Shown here: one piece after another, positions 2,768 to 44,871 of the stretch
Numbering within the stretch: the first letter of the stretch is position 1
Layout: every line of letters starts with the position of its first letter
Assembly (NCBI GenBank): GCA_020854105.1
Contig: JADZGB010000044.1
Coordinates: 1-64,000 of the forward strand
Direction of reading: 5' to 3'
Origin: Burkholderiales bacterium
Lineage (GTDB): Bacteria > Pseudomonadota > Gammaproteobacteria > Burkholderiales > SHXO01
Length of the DNA: 64,000 bases
Notes under the pieces: model-generated
The model's input: the letters and a program-made list of their open reading frames with translations, nothing else
What the model was told of the DNA's origin: nothing
Databases searched by the model: none
Made by a program: the position numbers and the translations under genes

Positions 2768-3712
2768 ATGTCGGATTTGATGCGGCGCATAGACGCCAAG
2801 ACCAAGCTAGCAGGCACGAACAAGCTCGAGATTCTGCTTTTCACGCTGGGGGAGGATGCTCGAACAGGCCGAAAGGAAACCTACGGCATCAACGTCTTCA
2901 AGGTGCGTGAAGTGATGCGCACGCCAGGGATCACGCGCGCGCCCGAGATGCCGCCCGCAGTGGAAGGCATGGTGAGCCTGCGTGGCGCGCTGGTCCCGGT
3001 GCTCGATCTCGCCCGATACGCGGGCGTCACGGTTCAGGCAACGCCCGAGATCATGATCGTTACCGAGTACAACGGTCACACCCAGGGCTTCCTCGTCGAG
3101 GCCGTGGACACCATTCTGCGACTGGACTGGTCGCGCATGCGCGTACCACCCGAGATGCTGGTCAGGCAGACCGGCGGCTTCGTCACCGCAGTGACGGAAC
3201 TCGGAGACGGTCGTCTGGTGATGATGCTCGACGTGGAGCGGATTCTGGCCGAGACAACCAGCTACGACAACGAACTCGAATTCCAGAATCTCCAGCCACT
3301 GCAGAGTCAGGAGAAGACCATCCTCTTCGCGGACGACTCCTCGGTCGCGCGCAAGCAGATCGAGCGCACACTCGATGCAATGCACATCCGTCACATCAGC
3401 GCGGTGAACGGCAATCATGCCTGGCGCGAACTCGAGCGGATCGCCAGCGTCGCGGAGATGTCGAAGCGACGGGCGGCGGAACTCGTTCACGCGGTCCTCA
3501 CCGACGTCGAGATGCCGGAGATGGACGGCTTCCTCCTTACCAAGCGCATCAAGGCAGATCCGCGCTTCGCCGGCATCCCGGTGATCATGCATTCTTCATT
3601 GTCCGGGCTGCAGAACCAGCACCTGGGAATGTCCGTGGGCGTGGACGAGTACGTTTCCAAGTTCGAGCCGCAGAGGCTTGCAGAAGTGCTCGTCCGCCGT
3701 CTGGCCGCCTGA
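2768..3712 (+). CDS. cheV: CheV chemotaxis adaptor, first copy
   Basis: A 314-residue CheV: a CheW-like coupling domain (about residues 15-165) fused to a receiver domain (about 180-312). CheV links receptors to CheA, and its receiver is thought to tune adaptation by phosphorylation. Receiver landmarks are FADDSSVARK (acidic pocket), the phospho-acceptor Asp in LTDVEMPEMDGF, a Ser in the MHSS switch position and the Lys in VSKFEP. The start has GGAG upstream. It is the first gene of cluster 1 behind the sigma-28-like promoter. Compared with the next gene it has a 6-residue insertion (EDARTGRKE region). Confidence 0.95.
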   Translation: MSDLMRRIDAKTKLAGTNKLEILLFTLGEDARTGRKETYGINVFKVREVMRTPGITRAPEMPPAVEGMVSLRGALVPVLDLARYAGVTVQATPEIMIVTEYNGHTQGFLVEAVDTILRLDWSRMRVPPEMLVRQTGGFVTAVTELGDGRLVMMLDVERILAETTSYDNELEFQNLQPLQSQEKTILFADDSSVARKQIERTLDAMHIRHISAVNGNHAWRELERIASVAEMSKRRAAELVHAVLTDVEMPEMDGFLLTKRIKADPRFAGIPVIMHSSLSGLQNQHLGMSVGVDEYVSKFEPQRLAEVLVRRLAA

Positions 3713-3730
3713 ATCCGTCGTCACATTCAC

Positions 3731-4663
3731 ATGTCACCGAACGACAATCAGAACCTGTTCGACACCGTCGATGCACGCACCCGCCTCGCCGGGTCGAACA
3801 AGATGGAGATCCTCCTGTTCACCCTGGGCACGCAGGAGATCTTCGGCATAAACGTGTTCAAGGTGCGCGAAGTCACCAAGACGCCCTTCATCACCAGGAC
3901 ACCCAACATGCCGACTGGAGTGGAGGGCGTGATCTCGCTTCGGGGGAGCGTGATTCCCGTCATCAACCTGGCACGCTTCGTCGGTCAGGCAGGTATCGAT
4001 CTGGGCGGTACCATGATGGTCACCGAGTACAGCCGGCGCACTCAGGGCTTCCTCGTCGAGTCCGTCGACAGGATCGTGCGCGTCGATTGGGAGAAGGTGC
4101 GCTCGCCCGACAGCGTGATCACCGGGAACGACAACCTGATCACCGCGATAACAGAGCTCCCCGACGGCACACTGGTGTCCGTCCTCGATGTCGAACAGGT
4201 GCTGGTAGACGCATTCGGCGAACCGCGCGTTCCGGATCTGCAACCGGTGGAGGCGGGCCACGAGGCCCTCGTCTTCTTCGCGGACGACTCCATGGTCGCA
4301 CGCAAGGAGATCGGCCATGTGCTCGACCGGCTGGGGGTCAAGTATCACCAGGCGAACAACGGGGCGGAAGCATGGACTCGCTTGCAGGCCATGGCAACGC
4401 GCGCCGCCCAGGACGGGGAACCGCTGAGCAGGCAGTTAAACGTCATTCTGCTCGACGCGGAGATGCCCGAGATGGACGGATACGTGCTGACCCGACACAT
4501 CAAGTCGGACGCGCGCTTCGCGGGGGTGCCCATCGTGATGCACTCCTCGCTCTCTTCTCAGGCGAATCATGCAATGGGAAAGCACGTCGGCGTCGATGCC
4601 TACGTGTCCAAGTTCGACGCCGCGATCCTCGCGGATACGCTCCGACCGCTTCTTTCGCGATGA
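3731..4663 (+). CDS. cheV: CheV chemotaxis adaptor, second copy
   Basis: A 310-residue CheV paralogue, 18 bp after the first copy and with the same architecture: CheW-like domain then receiver. The N-termini are nearly parallel (DARTRLAGSNKMEILLFTLG here, DAKTKLAGTNKLEILLFTLG in copy 1), so the pair probably arose by tandem duplication. The receiver keeps FADDSMVARK, the acceptor Asp in LLDAEMPEMDGY, MHSS and VSKFD. Both copies look intact, so each may pair with different receptors or one of the two CheA kinases; that division of labour is inference. Confidence 0.95.
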   Translation: MSPNDNQNLFDTVDARTRLAGSNKMEILLFTLGTQEIFGINVFKVREVTKTPFITRTPNMPTGVEGVISLRGSVIPVINLARFVGQAGIDLGGTMMVTEYSRRTQGFLVESVDRIVRVDWEKVRSPDSVITGNDNLITAITELPDGTLVSVLDVEQVLVDAFGEPRVPDLQPVEAGHEALVFFADDSMVARKEIGHVLDRLGVKYHQANNGAEAWTRLQAMATRAAQDGEPLSRQLNVILLDAEMPEMDGYVLTRHIKSDARFAGVPIVMHSSLSSQANHAMGKHVGVDAYVSKFDAAILADTLRPLLSR

Positions 4664-4722: not shown

Positions 4723-5124
4723 ATGTCCAAACCCGATCTGAAATTCCTCGTCGTAGACGATTTCTCCACGATGCGGCGCATCGTCCGCAACCTTCTAAAG
4801 GAGCTTGGTTTCAACAACGTGGACGAGGCCGAGGACGGAATCAACGCGCTGCAGAAGCTGCGCGCGGAGAGCTTCGATTTCGTCATCTCCGACTGGAACA
4901 TGCCGAACATGACAGGGATCGAGCTGCTGCGCCAGGTTCGTGCAGATGCGGTACTGCGCCACCTTCCCCTGCTGATGATTACGGCAGAGGCGAAGAAGGA
5001 GAACATCATCGAGGCCGCCCAGGCCGGTGCCAGCGGCTACATCGTCAAACCGTTCACGGCAGCGACCCTGGACGAGAAGCTGAACAAGATCTTTCAGACC
5101 ATGAAGGCGGGAGCGAACACCTGA
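4723..5124 (+). CDS. cheY: CheY response regulator (cluster 1)
   Basis: A 133-residue single-domain receiver that carries phosphoryl groups from CheA to the flagellar switch. All CheY landmarks are present: Asp12/Asp13 (VVDDF), acceptor Asp57 in ISDWNMPNM, Thr in [11 protein letters not shown] and the conserved Lys in YIVKPF. The SDWNMPNM stretch is almost identical to enteric CheY, and the gene overlaps cheZ, so this is the likely motor-binding CheY. The one in cluster 2 is more divergent. Confidence 0.96.
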
Positions 5125-5846
5125 TGAGCAGTCTGGCCACCCCGAACAGCACACAGGATTCGCCCGAACTCGAGGCGCTCTTCGACAGCATCGCCGCAGT
5201 CGGCCGCGAACCGCAGAGCGGGGCGCGGTCCGATTCCGCGACCGACGACGTCGTATGCCAGATCGGCCATCTCACTCGCCGCCTGCATGATGCGCTGGGT
5301 GCGCTGGGCTATGACAGTCTGCTGCAGAACGCAGCCGATACTTTCCCGGATGCGCGAGAGCGACTCGCGTACGTGGCGAACATGACCGAGCAGGCGGCGG
5401 TGCGATGCCTGACTGCCATCGAAGCGGCCAAACCGCATCAGGAAGCCCTCAGCCAGGGCGCGAGCGGGTTGGCGCAGGAGTGGGATCGGCTGTTCCAGGG
5501 CCAGATGCCCAAGGAGCAGTTCCGGGAACTGGCGCTGCGCACGCGCGATTACCTGGGCAAGGTCCCAGCCTCGACGGACGCCACGAACGCCCAGCTCACC
5601 GAGATCATGATGGCTCAGGATTTTCAGGATCTGACTGGCCAGGTGATCAAGAAGATCGCCGACATGGTGCAGGACGTCGAGCAGCAACTGCTCAAACTGC
5701 TGATCGACCACGCGCCTCCCGATCGGCGCGTGGCTGCGCAATCGGCGGGACTGCTCAATGGACCGGTGATCAGCGGCAATGGTCGCAGCGATGTCGTGAC
5801 CAGCCAGGCACAGGTGGATGAGTTGCTGGAGAGCCTCGGATTCTGA
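5124..5846 (+). CDS. cheZ: CheZ CheY-P phosphatase
   Basis: A 240-residue CheZ that dephosphorylates CheY-P. The catalytic helix reads MMAQDFQDLTGQVIKKI, with the D-x-x-x-Q pair (DLTGQ) corresponding to the Asp/Gln used in catalysis. The last residues QVDELLESLGF form the CheY-P-binding tail. The ATG overlaps the cheY stop by one base, so translation of the two is coupled. It is the only recognisable cheZ in the window; cluster 2 lacks one. Confidence 0.96.
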   Translation: MSSLATPNSTQDSPELEALFDSIAAVGREPQSGARSDSATDDVVCQIGHLTRRLHDALGALGYDSLLQNAADTFPDARERLAYVANMTEQAAVRCLTAIEAAKPHQEALSQGASGLAQEWDRLFQGQMPKEQFRELALRTRDYLGKVPASTDATNAQLTEIMMAQDFQDLTGQVIKKIADMVQDVEQQLLKLLIDHAPPDRRVAAQSAGLLNGPVISGNGRSDVVTSQAQVDELLESLGF

Positions 5847-37527: not shown

Positions 37528-37833
37528 TCAGCGGATCGAGAACAGCTTCGCGAAGTTGGCGATGTCCAGTACCTGACGCACCGAACCCCTGCAGTTGGAC
37601 AACGCCACGGTCTTGTTGACCGCCTGGGCCTTCTCGCGCAGCATCAGAAGCATGCCCAGCGCGGAGCTGTCCAGGTAATCCACCGCTCCCAGATCGATCT
37701 CGACTTCCTTCACGCCCTGGTTCTCCAGCGAGGGGGCGTAGGACTCCCGGAAGATCCGGTGCGCGCTGAAGTCGAAGCGCCCGTTGAGGCGGATTCGCAC
37801 GTGGTCGTGCACGGTTTCCACATTGGCTTGCAT
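37528..37833 (-). CDS. STAS-domain anti-sigma-factor antagonist-like protein
   Basis: A 101-residue single STAS domain. The phosphorylatable Ser region reads VDYLDSSALGMLLMLREKA (Ser56/Ser57), as in SpoIIAA/RsbV-type antagonists that bind switch kinases. It is the last gene of cluster 2, 81 bp after cheB. No RsbW-like kinase or PP2C phosphatase is nearby. STAS proteins at chemotaxis loci occur, but their partner here is unknown; CheA2 might phosphorylate it, which is speculation. Confidence 0.9.
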   Translation of the reverse strand: MQANVETVHDHVRIRLNGRFDFSAHRIFRESYAPSLENQGVKEVEIDLGAVDYLDSSALGMLLMLREKAQAVNKTVALSNCRGSVRQVLDIANFAKLFSIR

Positions 37834-37914: not shown

Positions 37915-39018
37915 CTACACGCGGATCTCGCGCCGGCTTCCCAGCGCCTGCAGCAGATGTCTGGCGATCTCTCCCAGCGCGGCGACCTCGGTTGCCGCAC
38001 CGACCTGGATCGCCTCGCGCGGCATCCCGAACACCACGCACGTCGCTTCGTCCTGGGCGATCGTGTAGGCCCCGGTCTGACGCAGTTCGAGCAGGCCCTG
38101 CGCACCATCCTTGCCCATGCCGGTGAGAATCGCGCCCACGGCGTTCCTGCCCGCAGCGTTGGCGACCGAGCGGAACAGCACGTCCACCGAGGGCCGGTGG
38201 CGGTTGACCGGCGGTCCCTGATTCAGTTGACACACGTAATTCGCCCCGCTGCGCCCGAGCAGCAGGTGCGAGTGGCCGGGCGCGATATACGCGTGCCCGG
38301 GAAGCACGCGTTCGCCGTCCTCCGCCTCCTTCACCCGGATGCGGCAGATTCCGTCCAGGCGCGCTGCGAACGAGCGGGTGAAGCCCTCCGGCATGTGCTG
38401 CGCGACCAGCACCCCCGGGGCATCCGGCGGCAGTGCGCTGAGCACCTCCTTCAAAGCCTCCGTCCCGCCCGTGGAAGCGCCGATCACGATGAGTTTCTCG
38501 GTGGACGCGACACGGGCCATGACCTGAGGCAGGACAGCATCCGCCTTGAGGCTTGGCGCCACCTCGGGTGCAGGCGCACCGCGGCGCGGCCGGGCATGTG
38601 CCGCGATGCGGATCTTGCCGGCTATCTCTTCGGCATAGGCTTCCAGCCCCCGGGCGATGTCGAGCTTGGGTTTGGCCACGAAATCGACAGCCCCCAGTTC
38701 CAGCGCCCGCAGCGTCATTTCGGAGCCACGCTGTGTCAGGGTGGAGACCATCACGACCGGCATCGGGCGCAGCCGCATCAGCTTCTCCAGGAAGCTCAGG
38801 CCATCCATCTTCGGCATCTCCACGTCGAGCGTGATGACGTCGGGATCGAGATTGCGGATCATCTCGCGCGCCACCAGCGGGTCGGGCGCCGCGCCGATGC
38901 ACGTCATGTCGGGCTGGGCGTTCACGATCTCGCCCAGCAGCTTCCTGATCATTGCCGAATCGTCGACGATCAGCACCCTGGTCTTGCCGACGTCCTTCGC
39001 GGTCGTGGCGGAACTCAT
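37915..39018 (-). CDS. cheB: CheB protein-glutamate methylesterase/deamidase
   Basis: A 367-residue CheB: receiver domain (acceptor Asp65 in [14 protein letters not shown]) then a methylesterase domain with the Ser-His-Asp triad in [21 protein letters not shown] and LTGMGKDGA. It removes methyl groups from receptor glutamates when phosphorylated by CheA. The start ATG overlaps the cheD stop (ATGA). I rejected the longer frame upstream, which reads through cheD. Confidence 0.97.
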
Positions 39019-39623
39019 ATGAATAGCTCCACTTCGCCGCTGACCGGTTCGCTCTGGATGCGATCGCGATAGCTGCGCTCGCGCTCGACGATGGTGCTGT
39101 TGTGCATCGACTTGAGCTTCTTCACGAGCACCTTGCCTGTCGCTGGGAAGTAGTAGATCTTGCGCGGATAGCGGCCTACCAGGTCCTTGGCATGCACGCG
39201 GATCCTCTCCGTGGCCAGGAAGTCCATGACGAAGGCCGAGTTGCGCGCCCCGACGTCGGTCACGGTCAGTCCGGCGAGCACGTTGCCGCCGCCGAACACC
39301 TTCGCCTCCAGGTGCGACCGGCGCGCGCCCAGCTTGATCAGCTGGTTGATCAGCAGTTCCATCGCGTGAGTACCGTAGCGGGCGGAGGTGCTTACCGCGC
39401 CGGTCTCCTGGCCCGCGTCCGGCAGCATGAAGTGATTCAGTCCGCCCACACCGGTTGCCGGATCGCGTATGCACGCCGAGACACAGGAGCCGAGCACTGT
39501 CACGAGCAGCATGTCGGACTGCGTGACGAAGTACTCACCCGGGAGGATCTTGATCGCCTCGGTGGAGAAGTTGCGATCGTAGTAGTGATTCGTGGCAAGC
39601 GCGGTGACCGCCAGTTCGCTCAT
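39015..39623 (-). CDS. cheD: CheD chemoreceptor glutamine deamidase
   Basis: A 202-residue CheD. The catalytic Cys-His pair is in [14 protein letters not shown] and [10 protein letters not shown], with a downstream Thr in [15 protein letters not shown]. It deamidates receptor glutamines and in some bacteria works with CheC. The C-terminus ends [10 protein letters not shown], similar to the end of the cluster 2 chemoreceptor (GAGEIDLF); see findings. It starts at ATG 39623, 7 bp after cheR. Confidence 0.96.
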
Positions 39624-39630
39624 GTGCCCG

Positions 39631-40515
39631 TCACTCCCGCGCGGTACCTGCAGCGCCGGCAAGACGGTAGACGGTCCGGCCCAGCAACTGGAACACGTCG
39701 GAGACGTGGAACAGGCTTTCCGAATGACCCGCGAACAGCAGGGCATCGTCGCGCATCAGCGGCGCGAAGCGGCGCAGGATCCTGGCCTGGGTCTGCTTGT
39801 CGAAGTAGATCATCACGTTGCGGCAGAAGATCGCATCGAGCGGCCCGCGCACGAGCCAGCCATCTTCCAGCAGATTGAGGCGCTTGAAGGTGATGAGCTT
39901 CTGTAGTTCCGGCCGGACCTTGGCATAGCCTTCGCGCGCGCCCGATCCCTTCAGGAAGAAGCGCCGCACCCGGTCGGGGCTCATCTTCTCCAGACGCTCG
40001 AGTGGATACACGCCCGATTCGGCCCTGTTCAGCACCTGGGTGTCGATGTCCGTGGCGACGATGCTCACCGGCGGATTGAAACTGCCGAACGCCTCGATCG
40101 CGGTAATGGCGATCGAGTACGGCTCCTCACCCGTGGAGGATGCGCAGCACCAGACGGTGCTGCCGCGAGCCGAGTTCTTCACGAGATGCTCGGCGAGGAT
40201 CGGGAAGTGGTGTGATTCGCGGAAGAACGAAGTCAGATTGGTGGTAAGTGCGTTGGTGAATGCCTCCCACTCCTCGTCCTCTGCGTTGCTCTCGAGCATG
40301 TCCAGGTATTCGGAGAATCGCCGCAACCCCAGTGCGCGCAGCCGGCGTGCGAGGCGGCTGTACACCATGTCGCGCTTCGCGGGTCCGAGCGAGATCCCCG
40401 CCCGCGCGTAGATGAGTGCCCGGACCTTCTCGAAATCCCGATCCGAGAAATCGAACTCCCGGCTGCCACCCGCAGCGGCTTCGGCTGCAACGTTCTGTAC
40501 TGCGCTGGTTCTCAT
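39631..40515 (-). CDS. cheR: CheR chemoreceptor methyltransferase
   Basis: A 294-residue CheR that methylates receptor glutamates. The N-terminal helical domain (RRFSEYLDMLESN; NLTSFFRESHHFPIL) precedes a SAM domain with WCCASSTGEEPYSIAI and CRNVMIYFD. The ATG at 40515 overlaps the stop of a 6-codon mini-ORF (40512-40532) whose sequence repeats the start of cheR. No TPR or receptor-pentapeptide-binding extension is visible. Confidence 0.97.
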   Translation of the reverse strand: MRTSAVQNVAAEAAAGGSREFDFSDRDFEKVRALIYARAGISLGPAKRDMVYSRLARRLRALGLRRFSEYLDMLESNAEDEEWEAFTNALTTNLTSFFRESHHFPILAEHLVKNSARGSTVWCCASSTGEEPYSIAITAIEAFGSFNPPVSIVATDIDTQVLNRAESGVYPLERLEKMSPDRVRRFFLKGSGAREGYAKVRPELQKLITFKRLNLLEDGWLVRGPLDAIFCRNVMIYFDKQTQARILRRFAPLMRDDALLFAGHSESLFHVSDVFQLLGRTVYRLAGAAGTARE

Positions 40516-40634: not shown

Positions 40635-41129
40635 CTATGCGGCGAGCGGCTGCTGATCGACGAGCGCCATGTCCGGGTGCGTCATGAGGCGCTCGATGTC
40701 CACCAGGATGATCATCCGGTCGTCGAGCGAACCCAGGCCGAGGATGTAGGCGGTGTCCACGGCAGCACCGAGCTGCGGCGCGGGCCGGATCTGCTCCCCA
40801 TCCAGGGTAATCACGTCGGATACGCTGTCGACGACGATCCCGACCACGCGGTCGGCGATATTGAGGATGATGACTACGGTGAATTCGTTGTACTCGACAT
40901 TTCCGAGCGAGAACTTGATGCGCATATCCACGATCGGGACGATCAGGCCGCGAAGATTGATCACGCCCTTGATGAACTCGGGCGCGTGCGCAATGCTCGT
41001 GACGGTGTCGTAGCCGCGGATCTCCTGCACCTTGAGGATCTCGACGCCATACTCCTCGTCGCCGAGCGTGAAGGTGAGGAACTCACCGCTGCGCTGATTG
41101 CCGCCGATATGCTGCGTGCCGTCGCTCAT
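40635..41129 (-). CDS. cheW: CheW coupling protein
   Basis: A 164-residue CheW connecting receptors to CheA. Typical blocks are [43 protein letters not shown] and [11 protein letters not shown]. It starts at ATG 41129 with AGGAG 5 nt upstream; the open frame continues upstream, but the alternative start lacks a ribosome-binding site. It is the only free-standing cheW in the window; cluster 1 has CheV proteins instead. Confidence 0.97.
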
Positions 41130-41193
41130 ATGCACTCCTGTTCGATTTCCTTTCCCGTTCTTTGCGGCGCAGGTGATCGCGCCGCATCGAGTC

Positions 41194-43314
41194 TCATGCG
41201 GCTTCCGCCAATCCATAGGCCACCCTTACCAGCGCCGCCACGTCGAGGATCAGCGCCACCCGGCCATCTCCCATGATGGTCGCGCCGGAGACGTAAGGCA
41301 CCTTGCGGTAGTTCGTCTCGAGGCTCTTGATGACCACCTGGTGCTGCCCGACCAGTTCGTCCACGGACAGTGCGACCTTCCCGCCCTCCGCTTCGAGAAT
41401 CACGATGATTCCCTGCTCCAGGCGCTCGACGCCGGACGGGATGTCGAGCAACCGGCTCAGCGACATCACCGTCAGATGCTCTCCGCGAACCTGAATGACT
41501 CGCGCAGCACCCTGGACCGTGTGGATCTCCGCGGCCTTCGGCTGCATCGACTCGACCACGAAACTCAACGGCAGGATGAACATCTCCGTGCCGACTGCGA
41601 TCGACATGCCGTCGAGGATGGCCAGCGTCAGCGGCAGGCGGATCGAGATGCGCGTGCCCTGACCGGTGACCGAGGACAGCTCCACCCGTCCCCCGGCCGC
41701 CTGAATGTTGCGCCTGACCACGTCCATCCCGACGCCGCGTCCGGACACATCGCTCACCACCTCGGCAGTGGAGAAACCGGGCTCGAAGATGAGCTGCCAG
41801 ACATCCTGATCGGACATGTCATCGCTGACCTGCATGCCGCGGCTGCGGGCCTTGGCCAGGATGCGCCTGCGGTCGAGGCCACCTCCATCGTCCACCACCT
41901 CGATGACGATGCTGCCGCCCTGATGGAAGGCGCGCAGCGTGATGGTGCCGATCTCCGGCTTGCCTGCAGCCTGGCGCGCCTCCGGGGATTCGATGCCGTG
42001 ATCGAGGCTGTTGCGTACCAGATGGGTGAGCGGATCCGCGATCTTCTCGATCACCCCCTTGTCGAGCTCCGTGCCCTCGCCGACCGTCTTCAGCTCGACC
42101 TGCTTGCCGAGCTTGGACGCGAGATCGTGCACCAGTCGCGGAAAGCGGCTGAACACGAAGGCGATCGGCAGCATCCGGATCGACATCACTGCCTCCTGCA
42201 GATCGCGGGTGTTGCGTTCGAGCTGGGCAAGACGCTGGGACAGGCGTCCGCACTGGAGAGGATCGAGCTGCGCGGAGGTCTGTGCCAGCATCGCCTGGGT
42301 GATGACCAGTTCCCCCACCAGATTGATGAGCTGGTCGACCTTCTCGACACTGACGCGGATGGAGGACGAGTCGCCGCCCGACATTGGTACCACCCTGGGT
42401 GCCGGGGCAATCGGGAGGGAAGTCGCGGACTTCGTCTGCGCTTGCAGCGGCACGACGACCCCTTCCGACGGAGCACCAGGGGCATCGGCGAAGAAGCCAA
42501 AGCCCCCGGATGCCTCCGCCGTGGGCGCCTGTGGCGCCTCGAAGAAGCCGTAGCCCGGATCCTCCTGCGGCGCACCGGGTGCGTCCGTGAAGAAGCCGAA
42601 GCCCTGGTCCGTCTCCGCGGCCATGTCATCGACCGGCTCGCCTCGACCGATCTCCAGTTCCTCGGGCTGGATCACGAACTGCATCAGCTCCTGCAGTTCG
42701 TCCGCACTCGCCCGCGCGGTCAGGACGAGCACCCAGGAACCCTTGCGCTTGCCGGCCTTGCCGCGTGCGCGCGCCGGTTCCGACAGGACCTCCAGAGTGC
42801 CCAGGCCACGCAGTTCCCCGAGCAGGTTGTCCACGACCTCCTGTGCGAGCGCGCCACGGAAGCGCACGCTGCGTCGCTCCAGCGGGGCCGGTCCCGCCAG
42901 AGCCGTGACCGGCACGGCGGCAGGCGCGCAGTCACCGCTGGCGAGTGCCTCGATGCGCGCACGTGCGGCCTCGGCGCTCGCCGGGTCGGCGCTCCCCTGG
43001 CCGCGATGCGCTGCCAGTTGCGAATGCAGGATGTCGCCACCGGCCAGCAGCGCGTCTACCATCGGCCGGGTCGGCTGCAGTTCCTGCTTGCGCAAGCGGT
43101 CGAGCAGGGTCTCCAGCGCGTGCGTGAGTTCGGCCACGTCTCTGAACCCGAACGTGGCCGCACCGCCCTTGATGGAGTGCGCGGCACGGAAGATGGCGTT
43201 GAGCTGCTCGGCATCCGGTTCGGCCAGATCCAGAGACAGCAGGAGACTCTCCAGACTTTCCAGGTGCTCGTTCGCTTCCTCGAAGAACACCGCGTGGAAC
43301 TGGCTGACGTCCAT
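41194..43314 (-). CDS. cheA: CheA histidine kinase (cluster 2)
   Basis: A 706-residue CheA. The HPt His46 is in [17 protein letters not shown] long middle region (about 130-330) includes a P2-like domain and a linker carrying three phenylalanine-rich repeats ([32 protein letters not shown]). Dimerisation, ATPase ([33 protein letters not shown]) and CheW-like domains follow. It is clearly a different subfamily from the cluster 1 kinase. It sits between cheY and cheW in the operon. Confidence 0.97.
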
Positions 43315-43329: not shown

Positions 43330-43695
43330 TCAGCCCAGTACCTTCTTGACAACCTCCAGGAGCTTGGGCGGATCGAACGGCTTGACCAGCCATCCGGTCG
43401 CGCCCGCTGCCTTGCCCTGCTGCTTCATCCCGTCGCTGGCCTCCGTGGTGAGCACCAGGATCGGCGCCGCCTTGTATTGAGGCAGCGCGCGCAGCGACTT
43501 GATCAGGGTCAGGCCATCCATGCGCGGCATGTTCTGGTCGGTGAGAACCAGATCGACGGTGCCGGCCTTCGCCTTGTCCAGGCCGTCCTGGCCGTCCACC
43601 GCCTCGACCACCCGGTAACCCGCGCTGTTGAGCGTGAAGGCCACCATCTGACGGATCGAGGCCGAATCATCCACTGTAAGAACCGTCTTTCCCAC
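43330..43695 (-). CDS. cheY: CheY-like response regulator (cluster 2)
   Basis: A 121-residue receiver with the acidic pair Asp9/Asp10 (LTVDDSAS), acceptor Asp53 (LTDQNMPRMDGL), Thr in LVLTTEASDGM and Lys in GWLVKPFDPPKL. It differs clearly from cluster 1 CheY (no SDWNMPNM) and is more like the CheY of receptor-array or phosphate-sink type. Gaps to its neighbours are 12-15 bp, firmly inside the operon. Confidence 0.96.
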   Translation of the reverse strand: MGKTVLTVDDSASIRQMVAFTLNSAGYRVVEAVDGQDGLDKAKAGTVDLVLTDQNMPRMDGLTLIKSLRALPQYKAAPILVLTTEASDGMKQQGKAAGATGWLVKPFDPPKLLEVVKKVLG

Positions 43696-43707
43696 GGTGT
43701 CCTCCCG

Positions 43708-44871
43708 TCAAAACAGATCAATCTCGCCAGCGCCAACGTCGGATTGGCTGACTGGATTTCGTGCCGTCATGCTGCGCGCCTGCTCGGGCACGGCACTCAG
43801 GTCCCCATTCCCCTCCCGTGCGCGCGCCAGAGAACCGACGATCAGTTCGACCGCGTTCGCGCGCCGCTGCACGTGTTCGAGCAGCTGCGTGGTGATGTCC
43901 TGGAACTGCAGACGCCGCACCGAATCGTCGACGTCCTGCGTGAGGCTCCGGGCCAAGCCGCCGATCTCGTCCACGAGCTGGGCGACCCCCGTGTTGACCG
44001 CGGCGATCTCCTGCATGGTCGTCTCGACGCGCGCCTTTGCTGTCAGGGCGAAGTTCATGTCAGTCGATGCCATGCGGTTGATGTCGTCCTCGGTTTCGTG
44101 GATCGACACTTCGACCCGGTGCATGTGCGTGCGGATCTCGCTGCTGAACTGGCTGGTGCGTCCCGACAGATCGCGCACCGCGTCGGCGACCACGGCGAAT
44201 CCGCGACCCGCCTCGCCCGCGCGCGCTGCCTCGATCGCGGCATTGAGAGCCAGCAGATTGGTCTGCTTGGCGATGCTTTCGATCTCGCCCAGGATCTTCT
44301 TCACGTCGCCCAACTGAGTCTTCACACCGTCGATCCTTTCCACGAGAACCATGCCAGTACGGCTGGAGTTGATGGTGCTGTCCACGAAGGAGCGCAGTGT
44401 CTCTTCGGTGTCCTTCACGAAGCGCTCGAAGGTGACGTCCGTGCCGCCTTCACGCACCTGGCCGGTGGCCGCGCGCAGCGCGAGGTCGCGCTGCCGGCCG
44501 GACTGGTCTGCCATTGCGTGGAAGGACTGGACGAGTCCGGAGATGGCATCGCCAAGGATCTGCCTGACCCGCTCCACGTCGGCGCGGATCATGGTGAACT
44601 GCTCGACGAGCTCCGCGTGGCAGAGGTCCGTCCCTGCCGGGCAAGGGGGTATCTGACCGGCCGCACGCTCCTGGTCCACCGAGGCCTGGACCGCATTGGC
44701 CTTCGCCCAGCGCCACACCAGCATTGCCCAGACCGAGGCGGTGGCGAACATCGCCAGCGCGACGGCCACACGTGCGGATGCGGGGACGAGCAGCAGAAAG
44801 CCGATCAGTGTGAGAGCGCTGGCAGCGACACCCTGCAACAGGGTGCGGCGCGAAGGTTCGGAGGGACGCAA
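43708..44871 (-). CDS. Chemoreceptor (MCP) without periplasmic domain, CheZ-like tail
   Basis: A 387-residue receptor. Two N-terminal transmembrane helices (about 12-31 and 34-53) form a hairpin with almost no periplasmic loop, so sensing is probably cytoplasmic or membrane-based. The signalling hairpin tip is [24 protein letters not shown] (trimmed). Near the C-terminus, residues 321-330 ([10 protein letters not shown]) match the CheZ catalytic helix (DFQDLTGQ), with a D325-x-x-x-Q329 pair. The protein ends VGAGEIDLF instead of a receptor pentapeptide. It is the first gene of cluster 2, behind a sigma-28-like promoter. Confidence 0.88.

Follow-up and report, generated by a model that had tools for sequence, protein, structure and literature searches.

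The chemoreceptor encoded at positions 43708..44871 (minus strand) of a 64,000-nucleotide stretch of Burkholderiales DNA (assembly GCA_020854105.1, contig JADZGB010000044.1, positions 1 to 64,000; the whole stretch is called the window here) carries, past its signalling hairpin, a D-x-x-x-Q motif of the kind found in the phosphatase CheZ, and ends in a hydrophobic/acidic peptide. Judged from alignments of its relatives, the tail and the two residues of D-x-x-x-Q are strongly constrained together, and motif and tail recur in small stand-alone proteins encoded beside cheY. We propose tentatively, giving it just under an even chance, that the last ~70 residues of the receptor are a cassette for docking and dephosphorylating phosphorylated CheY (CheY-P); docking, catalysis and any effect on signalling are what we infer from sequence.

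The gene opens with a TTG at 44871, which on inspection of the open reading frame is the first in-frame ATG, GTG or TTG past the upstream stop, and it encodes a McpA-like protein of 387 amino acids. A hydropathy scan placed two adjacent transmembrane segments at residues ~11-29 and ~35-53 (44713..44841, minus strand), joined by only ~5 residues, and the receptor is therefore without a periplasmic sensor. The signalling hairpin typical of methyl-accepting chemotaxis proteins (MCPs) occupies residues 176-309 (43945..44346, minus strand; Pfam PF00015 MCPsignal, E 1.9e-28). Beyond it lies LQFQDITTQ at residues 321-329 (43885..43911, minus strand), which places an FQDxxxQ of CheZ type at residues 323-329 and is identified by the sequence itself, by alignments and by a profile match to CheZ. 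An earlier, sequence-only reading had pointed to this motif and numbered D325 and Q329 correctly; both fall outside the MCPsignal match, past the ordinary MCP hairpin. The conserved C-terminal peptide, a proposed CheY-binding tail, spans residues 372-387 (43711..43758, minus strand) and follows the family consensus NPVxQxxMxxG[DE][IV][DE]LF, with EIDLF as the last five residues of the window receptor. Against the Pfam CheZ family (PF04344) the whole receptor scored 13.2 bits, under the gathering cut-off of 30.7, with a sub-threshold alignment (E 0.082) that runs over residues 270-343 and is in register with the active helix of CheZ. An NCBIfam scan returned generic MCP matches only, and the PDB matches were ordinary receptors.

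All 34 homologues from order-level relatives have (L/M)QFQDxxxQ together with a conserved end of one of two types, either NPVxQxxMxxG[DE][IV][DE]LF or, in a QFQDRVSQ subfamily, endings such as DITFF; tails across the family include DIELF, EVELF and similar sequences. The only invariant columns in a C-terminal alignment of 24 receptors were Q322, F323, Q324, D325, Q329 and the terminal F. At the level of the phylum, the cassette was found in 99 of 398 genomes, and among 108 aligned hidden Markov model matches the D was present in 104 and the Q four residues on in 105, the three residue-level exceptions being tandem receptor copies of one genome family (L136, L143, L144). The degenerate copy comes first in each tandem pair (L136:2079-3071, RFEEAVVP; L143:3642-4607, QFEETVTL; L144:1779-3800, HYEEVVTQ) and is followed by an intact one; where the degenerate copy forms an open reading frame of its own, as in L136 and L143, it has no tail either. 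These order- and phylum-level retrievals had used the motif, and the search was repeated with the hairpin alone, the query ending 20 residues before the motif. Among the best 43 matches of this motif-blind search, D was kept in 43, Q in 42 and the terminal F in 43, and LQ[FY]xDxxxQ stood in 42; the lone exception, L224 (LQSEDVVRR), deviates at the hairpin tip as well, where it lacks a residue that is invariant in the others. Most of the lower-scoring MCPs found in this way were without the motif. The complete D/Q invariance in our tail comparison holds by construction, its rows having been chosen with the motif, and has no evidential weight.

The resemblance to CheZ was examined with hhalign, where 104 cassettes compared with 76 CheZ sequences, a set that took in divergent alphaproteobacterial CheZs, gave a probability of 86.7% and E 4.3e-6; the match spans 62 columns without a gap, with FQDxxxQ at its centre. 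As controls, 65-residue windows from elsewhere in these receptors, the corresponding region of 13 ordinary MCPs and a reversed profile gave E 0.001-0.4 and probabilities of at most 19%; the 13 MCPs were picked for absence of the motif and gauge the profile match, not the frequency of the motif. An earlier shallow comparison, of 34 receptors with 31 CheZs, had reached a probability of only 8-19%. The distance from the motif Q to the C-terminus has a median of 70 amino acids in the family and 67 in CheZ, and the receptor tail resembles the ends of alphaproteobacterial CheZs, e.g. SQDDIDALF and SQDDIDDLFG. A divergent CheZ-like protein of 198 amino acids was also seen at L152:5478-6071 (plus strand), with EFQDLAGQ, the end SQRDVDSLLKDLMP and no surrounding chemotaxis operon.

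The gene neighborhoods link the cassette to cheY. For 32 of the first 34 receptors, cheY and then cheA follow directly, and cheZ was in none of the cassette flanks examined (~1.4 to 6 kb each). Eight loci (L112-L119) have, in place of the receptor, a stand-alone protein no longer than 158-212 amino acids, consisting of helices, an (L/M)QFxDxxxQ helix and a NPVTQSEMDAGSIELF-type tail, with no MCP tip and, when searched against Pfam, no relevant family match. The genes for these proteins (e.g. L115:5840-6370, minus strand, and L117:5866-6339, plus strand) lie directly upstream of cheY-cheA, and the fuller clusters go on with cheW-cheR-cheD-cheB. The best case for the cassette as a module of its own, one that works with CheY, comes from these stand-alone versions. 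In the CheYs that accompany either cassette type, D+2 is Asn and T+2 is Glu in 49 of 49 cases, as in E. coli CheY. Receptors with QFQDRVSQ and an FF tail have a partner CheY with Val at D+1, whereas for the other receptors the residue there is almost always Gln, a pairing that operon co-inheritance alone could explain.

In the mechanism that we favor, a DxxxQ helix would rest on the coiled-coil bundle and be followed by a flexible linker and then by the C-terminal peptide, a layout that would correspond to the second half of CheZ. CheZ of E. coli has its bundle at residues 35-168, a linker at 169-199 and the C-terminal helix at 199-214, with DxxxQ as phosphatase motif (PMC7750401). The C-terminal peptide of the receptor may capture the CheY-P of its own cluster, while D325 and Q329 would orient the water that hydrolyses the aspartyl phosphate. 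As a membrane-anchored phosphatase of CheZ type, the receptor would thereby serve the CheY of the adjoining gene, and may switch off its own signal. A broader proposal, which we consider possible though somewhat doubtful, is that the receptors and the small stand-alone proteins make up a single family of CheY-P phosphatases, widespread and so far overlooked, the counterpart of CheZ for F7 clusters, in which the receptor form joins the activity to the hairpin and perhaps places it under control of the signalling state; the cassette may have a common origin with CheZ. If these proposals are right, chemoreceptors can themselves carry signal-terminating activity, and the small stand-alone proteins beside cheY would be the simplest material for demonstrating it.

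Several results weigh against the phosphatase proposal. When the nine motif columns were masked, the match to CheZ fell to E 0.013, and therefore common descent with CheZ is unproven and convergence is possible; the profile signal, in these alignments, is confined to the motif region. The sequence-only reading had likened the tail to that of CheZ: the tail is hydrophobic/acidic and constrained, with the terminal F in 43 of 43, but its profile comparison with the CheZ tail was not significant (E 0.05). A second gene context has, as the neighbor of the cassette receptor, a STAS protein and a receiver-PP2C-like protein instead of cheY. Published work assigns McpA of P. aeruginosa to F6 arrays, and F7 arrays were unaffected by deletion of McpA-like receptors (PMC7184735, PMC7534058). 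Prediction of a structure with CheY, also suggested by the sequence-only reading, gave no confident receptor-CheY interface. The input was the natural in-frame receptor-TGA-cheY read-through from the window and from L037, with TGA read as Gly, and neither of the two AlphaFold runs (predicted template-modelling scores 0.34 and 0.47; predicted local distance difference test of the tail ~35-41) confidently placed either the tail or the motif helix against CheY; the runs are uninformative on the interface, in part since the receptor dimer is beyond a monomer model and the alignments had little depth.

Other phosphatases in the carrier genomes also count against the cassette as a general substitute for CheZ. 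The sequence-only reading had supposed that a receptor with built-in phosphatase activity fills the gap in a cluster that has no cheZ. The cassette does lie beside cheY in cheZ-less clusters, but the genome of the window has the CheZ of its cluster 1, almost all related beta- and gammaproteobacterial genomes with a cassette also have CheZ, and most carriers have CheZ or CheX/CheC. In the phylum sample, CheZ accompanied the cassette in 43 of 43 order- and class-level carriers, and 3 of 56 more distant carriers were above the CheZ cut-off. CheX or CheC matches occurred in 21 of the 23 CheZ-less distant carriers examined, all 23 of which have FliM, and about half of them place a cheX gene ~5 kb away from the cassette. 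The idea that the cassette is the sole phosphatase replacement in CheZ-less genomes is weakened by these 21 of 23 genomes, and on balance the cassette is more plausibly a device specific to its cluster than the only phosphatase that the cell has. The CheZ-less genomes with cheX ~5 kb from a cassette receptor are G085, G093, G097, G104, G112, G119, G127, G135, G147, G151 and G171, and there are others.

The principal alternative, which we judge unlikely but serious, keeps CheY and drops catalysis: the tail would hold CheY near the receptor or kinase, and the FQDxxxQ helix would be a contact surface that looks like CheZ since both bind CheY. Such a dock fits the linkage to cheY, the invariant F323 and terminal F, which suggest a binding face, and the restriction of the profile similarity to the motif region; it leaves unexplained why an acid and an amide at catalytic spacing are the least variable positions. 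A less probable alternative is that the cassette acts on another receiver, in a STAS/PP2C output module or in CheB, with the link to CheY secondary. The second gene context (L094, L097, L121, L124 and similar loci), in which the cassette receptor has STAS and a receiver-PP2C-like protein (a partner-switch output) at its side, often after cheB or cheW, gives this idea its footing, as does the STAS gene of the window cluster, but cheY is the direct neighbor in the window and at most beta- and gammaproteobacterial loci, and the partner CheYs retain CheY-type active sites. Still more improbable, in our view, is a tail that tethers an adaptation enzyme (CheR, CheB or CheD) in the manner of NWETF or GWEEF, with the motif helix purely structural. 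The tail does lie at the extreme C-terminus, and cheR, cheD and cheB are in the same cluster. Yet the CheR-tethering pattern x-[HFYW]-x(2)-[HFYW] is absent from the C-terminus of the window receptor, which ends EIDLF, and from the sampled family tails. According to PMC7184735, no McpA-like sequence has an xWxxF-type motif, and, of four CheR homologues, none bound to the tail of McpA from P. aeruginosa. In addition, the stand-alone proteins retain the tail without an MCP hairpin to modify. A helical coincidence or an ordinary methylation helix, the caution that the sequence-only reading attached to its own claim on the ground that many receptors have QFQD-type sequences, is highly improbable, and the conservation data contradict it: weak CheZ matches are common among coiled coils (other receptors up to E 0.003), but at the sequence level D and Q are kept together in 42 of 43 motif-blind relatives, ordinary MCPs and most lower-scoring MCPs of that search have no such motif, and the motif lies past the MCPsignal match.

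The receptor belongs to the second of two chemotaxis clusters in the window, and all the cluster 2 genes that follow it are on the minus strand. Next to it is cheY (43330..43695, Pfam Response_reg, GTG start), which begins 12 nt past the receptor stop in the same frame, with GGGAGG just upstream. The stop and start (window 43695-43708) likewise share one frame in L036, L037, L038 and L040; read-through at the junction would yield a receptor-CheY fusion, and the arrangement is probably incidental. Further along are cheA (41194..43314), cheW (40635..41216), cheR (39631..40515) and cheD (39015..39746), all identified with Pfam, the true starts of cheW and cheD possibly lying further downstream. 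The cheB gene (37915..39018) was identified from its translation and not by a Pfam scan, as a receiver followed by a CheB-type methylesterase sequence; its start, MSSATTAKD, lies at ~39018 within the open reading frame 37915-39474. The last gene of the cluster encodes a STAS-domain protein (37528..37833, Pfam). As the sequence-only reading had it, open reading frames and Pfam put no cheZ among these genes, and cluster 2 has no aer2-like receptor. Cluster 1, on the plus strand, provides the comparator: cheZ (5124..5846; PF04344, E 1e-74), with the motif AQDFQDLTGQ and the C-terminal end SQAQVDELLESLGF, is paired with a cheY (4723..5124; open reading frame list and translation). It is the single CheZ above the Pfam cut-off in the whole genome, in which no CheX match was found. 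Two tandem cheV-like genes (CheW domain plus receiver; 2768-4663, plus strand) precede cheY-cheZ-cheA in cluster 1. The same genome holds a second cassette receptor, of the QFQDRVSQ/DITFF subfamily (L034:349-1740; G000:C43:432201), directly upstream of its own cheY and cheA.

From published description and gene order, the window protein fits a McpA/CttP-like accessory receptor of an F7-type cluster. Like P. aeruginosa McpA/CttP (PA0180) and V. cholerae VCA1088, it combines an MCP signalling domain with a transmembrane region and adjoins a cheY-cheA-cheW-cheR-cheD-cheB cluster that has no cheZ and has STAS nearby; the conserved C-terminus of those receptors also has no CheR pentapeptide, and has Val or Ile second among the last five residues (PMC7184735). 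Unlike the present analysis, the consulted text of that source describes no DxxxQ motif, CheZ resemblance, function or stand-alone versions, and it calls the role of the conserved McpA C-terminus "important yet unclear". It likewise describes stage 1/2 F7 clusters as having cheY and no cheZ, with unclear function, and for VCA1088 a review notes no experimental report (PMC7534058). Searches of a PMC library, with preprints and most subscription journals outside its scope, turned up no account of a chemoreceptor with a CheZ-like motif. CheX and CheC are alternative CheY-P phosphatases, present in many CheZ-less cassette carriers, but they belong to a different protein family. In HisKA_3 sensor kinases (e.g. 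NarX), a DxxxQ-type motif on the bundle helix of a membrane sensor dephosphorylates a response regulator; the receptor has no kinase domain, and the likeness is one of principle only. With respect to CheZ itself (PF04344), the receptor differs in having TTQ or similar where CheZ has TGQ, in being membrane-anchored with an MCP hairpin, and in a tail of the form G[DE][IV][DE]LF instead of DLLxSLGF, whereas the two are alike in a coiled-coil helix with FQDxxxQ that stands ~67-70 residues ahead of an acidic/hydrophobic C-terminal peptide, and in a gene that adjoins cheY.
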